DNA of 34,559 bases. It comes from Wenzhouxiangellaceae bacterium. GTDB lineage: Bacteria; Pseudomonadota; Gammaproteobacteria; Xanthomonadales; Wenzhouxiangellaceae. Both the position numbers and the translations under genes were made by a program. Each line of letters begins with the position of its first letter. Position 1 is the first letter of the stretch. The stretch is from NCBI GenBank assembly GCA_007135395.1, contig SLIZ01000027.1:1-34559 (forward strand), in the 5' to 3' direction. Positions 13,480 to 16,448 of the stretch are shown here, one piece after another. Under the pieces are notes generated by a model. That model searched no databases. It saw only the letters and a program-made list of their open reading frames with translations, and was not told the DNA's origin.

Positions 13480-14910
13480 TCAGGCCGTGGCGGAAAACCG
13501 GTTGATCCGGCGGCGGGCCGCGGATGTGGGAATGCCAAGTTGTTCCCGATACTTGGCCACGGTCCGCCGGGCGGCAAGAATCCCGGTTTCGGCCAGGGTG
13601 TCGGCCAGGGCCTGGTCACTCAAGGGTTTGCCCACCGGCTCCTCGGCGATCAGTTTTCGGATGCGCTCCTTGACCGCCGTCGCCGAGATTTCCTCACCGT
13701 TGGCCAGGGGCACGGAACTGGAGAAGAAGTACTTGAGCTCGAAGGTCCCCCGGGGGGTATGGACGTATTTCTGGGTGGTGGCCCGGGAGACCGTGGATTC
13801 GTGGATGTCGAGAGCTTCGGAGATCTGCCGCTGGACCAGGGGGCGCATGCCGGCTTCTCCGTGTTCGAGAAAATCCGGCTGGCGTTCCAGGATGGCCCGG
13901 GTCACCGAGACCAGGGTATTGTTGCGAAGCTCCAGGCCGGCAATCAGCCAGCGTGCCTCCTGGAGCCGCTCCTTGAGGTATTTCGCATCCTCGCCACTGG
14001 TTTTCTTGATCAGGCTGACGTAGTAGTCATTGAGTTTCAGCCCAGGGTCATTTTCCGGATTGAGCGTCAGGTGCCAGCCCTCCGGGCCCGGATGAATATA
14101 GACGTCCGGGGCGATGTAGTTGGATTCGTCCAGCCCGAAGCGGGATCCCGGGCGCGGGTCCAGGGATCGGATTAGCGCTACTGCGCCAGCTACGGCTTGT
14201 TCGGCAAATCCGGTTGCGTGCTGCAGCGCTTTCAGATTCTGCCTGGCCAGCAGCTCCAGGTGCTGCTCCACGATGCGCTCGGCCAGGCCGCGCCAGGGAA
14301 CGTGCCCGGGCAGCGCCTGAAGCTGGACAGCCAGGCATTCGGCCAGGTTCCGGCTGGCAACCCCGACTGGCTCGAAACTCTGAATTCGGCGAAGGACGGC
14401 GGCGACTTCTTCCCGGCTGACCAGAAGTTCCGGTGCAAGGCTGATCCGGATGGTGTCCAGGTCGTCGACCAGGTAGCCGGCATCGTCCAGGGCAAAGATG
14501 ATGGCCCGGGCAATGGCCTCGTCGGTCTCCGTAAACGATGACAGGTTCAGTTGCCACAGCAGATGCTGGATCAGACTGTCTGCGGATTTGTCCTCGGCAA
14601 ACTGGTCCAGGGAGTTTTCCGCCGGGCCGGCCGGGGAAAAGCCTTCGGGCAGGTCGGACCAGTCCTCGAAACTGTCGTCAAACTCGAATTCCTCCTTCCC
14701 TTCGGTGCTGTCGGTCGACTCCGGGGCTTCCTCGTCGGTCTCGGTGCCGGATTCTTCCTGCTCCAGCAGGGGATTGGATTCGAGCAGTTCGGTGATGTGG
14801 TCCTTGAGTTCAAGCCGATTGAGCTGCAGAAGCCGGATGGCCTGGCGCAACTGGGGGGCAAGCTTGAGCTTTTGTCCCAGGCGGAGCTGAAGTTTCGGAC
14901 CGGCGTTCAT
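13480..14910 (-). CDS. rpoN: RNA polymerase sigma-54 factor
   Basis: Sigma-54 directs RNA polymerase to -24/-12 promoters and needs AAA+ activators to open them. The 476-residue protein begins with region I (LKLAPQLRQAIRLLQLNRLE), rich in Gln and Leu. An acidic region II follows (about 50-110, long runs of E and D), then the core-binding domain and the HTH. The C-terminal RpoN box ARRTVAKYRE (447-456) recognises the -24 element. KYVHTPRGTFELKYFFSS is also present as in the family. The start fits the conserved N-terminus. Upstream is the 170-bp palindrome, which separates it from lptB. A TAGAAT hexamer close before the ATG might be a -10 element, but no well-spaced -35 was found. Confidence 0.97.
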   Translation of the reverse strand: MNAGPKLQLRLGQKLKLAPQLRQAIRLLQLNRLELKDHITELLESNPLLEQEESGTETDEEAPESTDSTEGKEEFEFDDSFEDWSDLPEGFSPAGPAENSLDQFAEDKSADSLIQHLLWQLNLSSFTETDEAIARAIIFALDDAGYLVDDLDTIRISLAPELLVSREEVAAVLRRIQSFEPVGVASRNLAECLAVQLQALPGHVPWRGLAERIVEQHLELLARQNLKALQHATGFAEQAVAGAVALIRSLDPRPGSRFGLDESNYIAPDVYIHPGPEGWHLTLNPENDPGLKLNDYYVSLIKKTSGEDAKYLKERLQEARWLIAGLELRNNTLVSVTRAILERQPDFLEHGEAGMRPLVQRQISEALDIHESTVSRATTQKYVHTPRGTFELKYFFSSSVPLANGEEISATAVKERIRKLIAEEPVGKPLSDQALADTLAETGILAARRTVAKYREQLGIPTSAARRRINRFSATA

Positions 14911-14919
14911 GGGCCCATT

Positions 14920-15089
14920 CTAGTGTACCCCGCCGCTCATTCTGCAACTTTCAGCGAGTCGGAAAGCGCTTGGCTGCAAGGCAGGTCTCGCAGGGAATGG
15001 CCGTAGCCCTTTCCAAGAGACATAACGCCGCAGATGAGTGCTTTCCGGCTCGCCCTGAATGTTACAGAATGAGTGGCGGGGTTCACTGG
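14920..15089. repeat. Near-perfect 170-bp palindrome (MITE/ERIC-like or structured RNA)
   Basis: Arm 14927-14954 pairs with 15055-15082 (25 Watson-Crick, one G-U, two mismatches of 28). Arm 14955-14970 pairs with 15037-15052 (14 Watson-Crick, two G-U of 16) after a 2-nt bulge. Pairing goes on inward with GTCTC (14985-14989) and GAGAC (15017-15021), then GGAA and TTCC, to a CGTA loop at 15002-15005. Weaker matching extends outward to 14920 and 15089. The G-U pairs occur when the + strand is read as RNA; on the minus strand those positions become C-A mismatches. It fills most of the lptB-rpoN spacer. Confidence 0.8.
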
Positions 15090-15148
15090 CGCCGGGCGGG
15101 GGGATTGGGTTGAGCGGGACGGCTAGGGAGGAATTCCGGTGTTTTTGT

Positions 15149-15880
15149 TCAGAGCCTGAAATCCCGGCCCAGGTAGACGTTTCTTACATCCTCGTTGTCG
15201 AGGACCTGTGCCGGTGTGCCCTGGGTCATGACCTGGCCGTCGGAAATGATGTAGGCCCGGTCGCAGATGCCCAGGGTTTCGCGCACATTGTGGTCGGTGA
15301 TCAGGATGCCGATGTCCCGTTCCTTGAGCTGGCGGACGATGCGCTGGATTTCGGTCACGGAGATCGGGTCGACACCGGCAAAGGGTTCGTCAAGCAGGAC
15401 GAACCGGGGATTGGCCGCCAGGGCCCGGGCGATTTCCACCCGGCGACGCTCGCCTCCGGAAAGGCTCACGCCCATCTGGTCATGAAGGTGTTCGACATGC
15501 AGTTCGCTCATCAGCCGACCCAGTTCGGCTTCCCGTTCCGAGCGGTTCAGGTCCCGGCGCAATTCCAGGATGGCCAGAATGTTGTTGCGTACCGACAGCT
15601 TGCGAAAGATCGAAGCCTCCTGGGGCAGGTACCCCAGGCCCTTGCGGGCCCGCTGATGCATGTTGGCCCGCGTAATTTCGGCTCCGTCGAGCAGGATTTT
15701 TCCACCGTCGGCGGCCACCAGCCCCACGACCATGTAAAAACAGGTGGTTTTGCCTGCGCCGTTGGGACCGAGCAGGCCGACGATCTCACCCTGACGTACC
15801 TCCAGGCTTACCCCCCGGACGACTTCGCGGCCCCGGTAGCGCTTGACGAGTCCCTCGGTCTGAAGCATCGACTCAGTCAT
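15149..15880 (-). CDS. lptB: LPS export ABC transporter ATPase
   Basis: LptB is the cytoplasmic ATPase that, with LptF and LptG, extracts LPS from the inner membrane and pushes it to the outer membrane. The 243-residue protein (E. coli 241) shows Walker A GPNGAGKT (38-45), the Q-loop at Q87 in GYLPQEASIF, the signature LSGGE (140-144), Walker B VLLDEP (D164, E165), and the switch histidine H197. Start ATG 15880 overlaps the lptA stop by 8 nt; a further upstream ATG at 15916 would give an unconserved extension. lptF and lptG are not in the window, as usual for these genes. Confidence 0.96.
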   Translation of the reverse strand: MTESMLQTEGLVKRYRGREVVRGVSLEVRQGEIVGLLGPNGAGKTTCFYMVVGLVAADGGKILLDGAEITRANMHQRARKGLGYLPQEASIFRKLSVRNNILAILELRRDLNRSEREAELGRLMSELHVEHLHDQMGVSLSGGERRRVEIARALAANPRFVLLDEPFAGVDPISVTEIQRIVRQLKERDIGILITDHNVRETLGICDRAYIISDGQVMTQGTPAQVLDNEDVRNVYLGRDFRL

Positions 15881-16448
15881 CCGACCGTTCGGCGTTGTCC
15901 TCTTCGGGGGTATCATCTTCGCCGTTGTCTTCCGCGGGTTCTTCTTCCCCGGTGACCCGGCGCGCCTGTCCGCTACCTGGTTCGATGACGTATCGCACCC
16001 GGCTTCCCTCCTCGGTACTGGTGGCCGAGAGGGTCTCGTTGTCCAGGTTGTAGGTCAGGATGTCGCCGGTCACATCCCCCTGGGGATGGCGGACGAAGGC
16101 ATTGCCGGTAAACCGGATGGAATTGCTTTCGATGTCGAAGTTGATCTGACTGGCCTCACCGTTGACCTCCGTGCCGTCCTCCAGCCGATCCTTCCAGGTG
16201 CACGGCTCGCCGGTCAGTTCCAGTTCGGTCAAACGGTTTTCGGCGTAGCGCACCAGCCCGTTGTCGGCCCGTACTTCCATGGCGCCCCGGGTGATGATCA
16301 CATCCCCGATCAGGCGGGTGAATCCGGTCCGGGTTTCGGTTTCCGAATCCCGGGCTTCCACGTTGATCTTTTCATCCGAAGATGCCTGGGCCGGATCAGG
16401 GGCTGCGATCAGCAGCACGAGCGTCCAGAGAAAAATGACCTTCCACAT
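15873..16448 (-). CDS. lptA: LPS transport periplasmic protein LptA
   Basis: LptA is the periplasmic bridge protein that carries LPS from LptC to LptD. The 191-residue precursor has a signal peptide (MWKVIFLWTLVLLIAAP, cleavage likely after AQA at residue 22). The beta-jellyroll repeats follow, with GDVIITRGAMEVRADNGLV and GNAFVRHPQGDVTGD typical of the OstA/LptA domain. The C-terminal tail from about residue 165 is very acidic (long runs of E and D), which is unusual compared with the basic end of E. coli LptA. The start overlaps lptC by 53 nt; GAGGA about 11 nt upstream supports it. Confidence 0.93.
   Translation of the reverse strand: MWKVIFLWTLVLLIAAPDPAQASSDEKINVEARDSETETRTGFTRLIGDVIITRGAMEVRADNGLVRYAENRLTELELTGEPCTWKDRLEDGTEVNGEASQINFDIESNSIRFTGNAFVRHPQGDVTGDILTYNLDNETLSATSTEEGSRVRYVIEPGSGQARRVTGEEEPAEDNGEDDTPEEDNAERSDD

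Follow-up and report, generated by a model that had tools for sequence, protein, structure and literature searches.

A non-autonomous IS630-type miniature element at the apparent -10 box of rpoN in a Wenzhouxiangellaceae bacterium

Introduction

Small palindromic repeats without a transposase have been described from several bacteria. The RUP element of Streptococcus pneumoniae is 107 bp long, and its mobilisation by IS630-Spn1 has been proposed (PMC2229807). The Correia (NEMIS) elements of Neisseria have TA ends, lie between genes, carry putative promoters and occur in long and short forms (PMC2229807, PMC4853749). MITEPsy1 of Pseudomonas syringae, 100 bp long and with a 4-nt duplication, has been ascribed to ISPsy2, which is listed with a question mark under IS5 (PMC3189936).

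Here we describe a palindrome that lies upstream of rpoN in a contig of a Wenzhouxiangellaceae bacterium; the whole contig, 34,559 nucleotides long, is referred to below as the window. Like RUP, the palindrome belongs to a family of small non-autonomous elements with inverted ends, a TA target and IS630-like ends (PMC2229807), but it differs from RUP in its host, its GC-richness, its length of up to 270 bp (107 bp in RUP), its two internal hairpins and its CTAG site. With Correia it shares, by description, TA ends, an intergenic place and a long and a short form set apart by an internal segment, whereas its ends match an IS630 element found in the host's own bacterial family. With MITEPsy1 it shares a gammaproteobacterial host and a CTAG target (PMC3189936), but here TA is duplicated and the ends are of IS630 type, in contrast to the 4-nt duplication and ISPsy2 ascription of MITEPsy1. 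The ISBmu8-like subgroup of IS630 contains the nearest named relatives of the transposase discussed below, and members of the wider group end in CTAGTGT; those elements are autonomous, about 1.1 kb long and encode a transposase, unlike the MITE described here.

We are highly confident that the palindrome is a non-autonomous IS630-type MITE placed into a CTAG at the apparent -10 box of rpoN with duplication of TA, and its assignment to the IS630-type MITEs is nearly certain. This is a known kind of element; the family itself is new, with ERIC and Correia set apart from it by its ends and its hosts.

Results

The palindrome and its fold

The palindrome spans positions 14921-15088, in the spacer between lptB and rpoN where the preliminary description had placed it, within the gene order lptC-lptA-lptB-rpoN-hpf-ptsN-hprK-rapZ (Table 1). 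This copy is 164 bp long, has terminal inverted repeats and no transposase, and 24 of its 28 outer pairs are Watson-Crick. The region 14910-15099 folds at -120.9 kcal/mol on the + strand (shuffle mean -70.3; z -10.7) and at -106.5 kcal/mol on the - strand (shuffle mean -66.4; z -9.2), far better than the shuffles, none of which (0 of 200) folded as well on either strand.

Table 1. Coordinates in the window of the element, its parts and the neighbouring genes
Feature	Position	Strand	Basis
Short-form MITE of 164 bp, oriented with GAGTCGGAAAGCG arm at left	14923..15086	+	Copies in own genome and relatives; ends by TA rule
TA target duplication, intact copy, within CTAG 14920-14923	14921..14922	.	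Filled/empty comparison; flank survey
TA target duplication, decayed to TG; rpoN strand reads CCAG	15087..15088	.	Filled/empty comparison
Left terminal inverted repeat	14923..14952	+	Copy comparison
Right terminal inverted repeat	15057..15086	-	Copy comparison
Internal hairpin 1, left arm	14955..14971	+	Fold, copy comparison
Internal hairpin 1, right arm	15036..15052	-	Fold, copy comparison
Junction of 100-bp internal deletion (hairpin 2 gone)	15053..15057	.	Comparison with 268-bp copy C38, TA included
Apparent rpoN -10 box TAGAAT; first two bases are the TA duplication; 6 nt before start codon	14917..14922	-	Same-type box at 6-7 nt in 25/29 genomes
rpoN (sigma-54), start codon at 14910	13480..14910	-	Pfam PF04552, PF04963, PF00309
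lptB	15149..15916	-	ABC_tran; lptA- and lptC-like genes next upstream

Such a stable fold on both strands could belong to a structured RNA, either transcribed from the + strand and antisense to the operon or serving as a leader of rpoN, with its pairing under selection. The preliminary description had raised this reading and had pointed to an excess of G-U pairs on the + strand. The wobble pairs are present in the window copy, but the family as a whole does not share the bias: counted in 35 copies, the outer arms have 24 G.T and 34 A.C pairs. In the inner stem the same count gives 35 G.T against 6 A.C pairs, but 25 of these 35 fall at a single inherited T.G position (14959/15048 in the window) and 8 at one other. 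The inference of an antisense RNA from the bias was therefore rejected. Paired changes do occur at some inner-stem pairs between copies and subfamilies (A-T/G-C 16:12 and T-A/C-G 15:13), although two-sided changes are also expected from matched transposon ends or from self-correction of a hairpin. Furthermore, the copies lie at unrelated loci, the corresponding spacers of relatives have no palindrome, no Rfam family scored above its gathering score in the window, and a consensus scan of both strands at positions 14800-15300 found nothing that resembles a promoter or a terminator. The palindrome is thus most likely not an RNA gene, and we regard selection on the pairing of an RNA as very improbable.

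A repeat family with long and short forms

A BLAST search with a 171 bp query found about 15 places in the palindrome's own genome that match it, full-length and partial copies included, the best five with 86-92% identity; these occupy unrelated loci on many contigs. The own genome (G000) amounts to 2.78 Mb in 271 contigs, the assembly being 92% complete, and counts within it draw on BLAST and on a 357-kb sample of its sequence. Matches to the MITE were present in 33 of the 61 genomes searched (own included), and the tip pattern in 23 of 43 genomes of Wenzhouxiangellaceae. In named genomes a first search for the exact tip pattern returned no match, while a degenerate pattern retrieved 24 loci; the named genomes with tips are Wenzhouxiangella spp., some gammaproteobacterial MAGs and Thioalkalivibrio denitrificans.

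About 264 bp long without the TAs, the full-length MITE contains two internal hairpins, and each of its ends reads CTAGTGTACCCCGCCACTCATTCTGTAAC inward; in the own genome, full-length copies that keep both ends measure 260-270 bp. With the TAs counted, the C38 copy measures 268 bp and the window copy 168 bp, a difference of exactly 100 bp. The window copy reads ...GGCTCGCCCTGAATGTTAC where the C38 copy has ...GGCTCGCCCTTCGGG, hairpin 2 and CTCTGAATGTTAC in succession; an internal deletion has thus removed hairpin 2. Further short forms in the genome G005 have a constant length of 165 bp and a different junction, and the short form therefore probably has more than one origin.

The own genome also contains a second MITE family, which is related to the first and has tips CTAGTGGGCCACGCGGCAAATCAGGTAAC (C120:1-145, C9 at about 2840-2975 and C250:1-145; loci L031, L033 and L032). 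Separately, solitary tips CGGGGTACACTAG without a partner arm were found at L020 (C145:3474-3508), L140, L039/L152 and L040/L151. At these places an open frame, which at L020 is 217 codons long, takes its C-terminus (ending in GGVH) and its stop codon from the solitary tip.

An IS630 element with matching ends

A search for the DDE_3 family led to an IS630 element in G005 (locus L160, 1353-2512), 1160 bp from tip to tip, with a transposase of 361 aa (DDE_3, PF13358, E 8e-20). Its ends match the MITE consensus at 23/29 and 20/29 bases, with the next best place in the locus at 16/29, and a MITE variant seen in G027 matches its left end at 26/29. The protein relatives of the transposase in plasmids are ISBmu8-like IS630 transposases (nearest named, 61% identity), and several more distant IS630 relatives (L170-L172, L174 and L177; 46-50% protein identity) belong to elements that end in CTAGTGT. 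Since the ends of the L160 element match and the related IS630 elements end in CTAGTGT, we take the MITE to be derived from IS630.

No DDE_3/IS630 transposase was found in the own genome (assembly 92% complete), and pairing solitary tips in G022, G012, G016 and G000 to recover a full IS gave no pair at IS distance. A transposase in the same genome is expected of an active family and is not defining for an old copy. The one IS with matching ends belongs to another genus than the window; an L160-type element is thus a candidate as the direct parent of the window copy, given also the lack of an IS630 transposase in the own genome. The same lack suggests that the window copy is immobile now.

The preliminary description had compared the palindrome to ERIC and Correia-type elements, and an ERIC, Correia or REP/BIME element proper would indeed be of like size, intergenic and, in ERIC and Correia, flanked by TA ends (PMC2229807); Correia elements also come in long and short forms, as the palindrome family does. 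But the palindrome's ends fit an IS630 element from the host's own bacterial family and the repeat occurs chiefly in Wenzhouxiangellaceae, and we give this assignment hardly any credence at all.

Target site and duplication

In a survey of flanks, x was C at 107 of 112 xTAG ends. CTAG occurs at 79 sites in 357 kb of the own genome against about 1245 expected by composition, an approximately 16-fold depletion, and CTAG is thus a true target preference. Approximately 16-fold under-representation of CTAG was also seen in 400 kb of G022.

A duplication of the whole 4-bp CTAG was considered and rejected in favour of TA: five copies (L029, L048, L128, L124 and L055) have TA on both sides in non-CTAG contexts, their outer bases being incompatible with a duplicated CTAG. 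The duplicated part is therefore TA, as in IS630.

Flanks of the CTAGAAT type were found at 8 of 107 MITE sides, as compared with 3/158 and 6/162 (9/320) among all CTAG sides, a weak excess from which we do not claim a MITE preference for promoters beyond CTAG itself.

The insertion site before rpoN

The rpoN loci of 30 genomes, own included, were compared, and the upstream region was readable in 29; no genome among these other than the window's own has this MITE upstream of rpoN. The nearest relative (L064) has an empty site that reads GGCG-CTAG-AATGAGGCCATG, while the filled site in the window reads GGCG-CCAG-element-CTAG-AATGGGCCCATG, one TA having decayed since. We would like to note that RpoN of this nearest empty-site genome is only 65% identical and that the spacer around the site aligns over few bases only. 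An uninterrupted CTAGAAT before rpoN is also present in L078, L080, L083 and L084. The preliminary description had offered a mobile miniature element as one of its readings, and the multi-copy family, the TA duplication, the empty site in a relative and the IS630 ends all bear this reading out.

The CTAG target overlaps the apparent rpoN -10 box (CTAGAAT). In 25 of the 29 genomes the start codon of rpoN is preceded at 6-7 nt by TAGAAT, TACAAT or TACACT, as compared with 3.7% in shuffles. This conservation suggests that the box works as a promoter, and the short distance from box to start codon, with no room for a ribosome-binding site, suggests that rpoN mRNA is leaderless in this bacterial family. 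The earlier claim that the palindrome splits an lptB-rpoN transcript does not hold: relatives keep the box directly before the rpoN start codon, and the MITE thus lies in what appears to be rpoN's own promoter, not in a simple cotranscribed spacer.

Of 24 relatives, 7 (L064, L065, L069, L074, L075, L076 and L081) carry a sigma-54-type site (TGGCNCG-N4-TTGC) at a fixed distance of 8-9 nt upstream of the -10 box, where 0.08 are expected, and rpoN may possibly be autoregulated through it in those relatives. In the window no such site was found in the displaced flank or, by eye, within 70 bases upstream of the start codon, and the site may have been lost before the MITE was inserted.

Other repeats (ACCGCGGATGAACGCAGATAAACGCGG, ACCACGGAAGACACGGAA and short tandem repeats) were observed in the rpoN-lptB spacers of L084, L072, L074, L075, L065 and L069, so this spacer seems to collect insertions.

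Discussion

Under the proposed mechanism, an IS630 transposase acting in trans would recognise the terminal inverted repeats of about 30 bp (TAGTGTACCCCGCC..., with TA as the target), and the MITE would have been inserted into the CTAG of the -10 box (CTAGAAT) directly before rpoN with duplication of TA. The -10 hexamer TAGAAT would thereby have been rebuilt on the rpoN side of the MITE, while the sequence upstream of the box would have been pushed away and replaced by the MITE end. Since TA is duplicated on insertion, TAGAAT would be left whole and only its upstream part exchanged, and rpoN is presumably still transcribed from the rebuilt box without its former upstream control.

The MITE might in addition have been kept for a regulatory part that it gave to rpoN, such as an outward promoter, a new -35 or loss of sigma-54 feedback; this would add to the identification as an inserted IS630-type MITE and not replace it. 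The insertion at the -10 box that keeps TAGAAT intact is consistent with such co-option, as are the TACACT carried by the MITE end, which is the rpoN -10 box in the relatives L077 and L086, and the absence from this genome of the sigma-54-type site of relatives. On the other hand, the consensus scan found no -35/-10 pair, and loss of the sigma-54 site may predate the insertion. CTAG is moreover the usual target and CTAGAAT-type flanks exceed their share among all CTAG sides only somewhat; the mere availability of targets may therefore be enough. We consider co-option possible but unlikely. Slightly more doubtful again is the specific reading in which the MITE both restored the -10 hexamer of a leaderless promoter of rpoN and separated that promoter from a sigma-54 site; were it true, a transposon would have rewired the feedback of a global regulator, given that in the relatives sigma-54 would control its own gene.

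The inserted IS630-type MITE adds a MITE family and a candidate IS630 source to a little-studied bacterial family. The kind of element is ordinary and the insertion spot is neat, a clean example of a TA-duplicating element that strikes a -10 box without destroying it; its effect on rpoN is a predicted one. The predicted leaderless rpoN promoter, with a sigma-54 site just upstream in several relatives, may prove of greater value than the palindrome itself.
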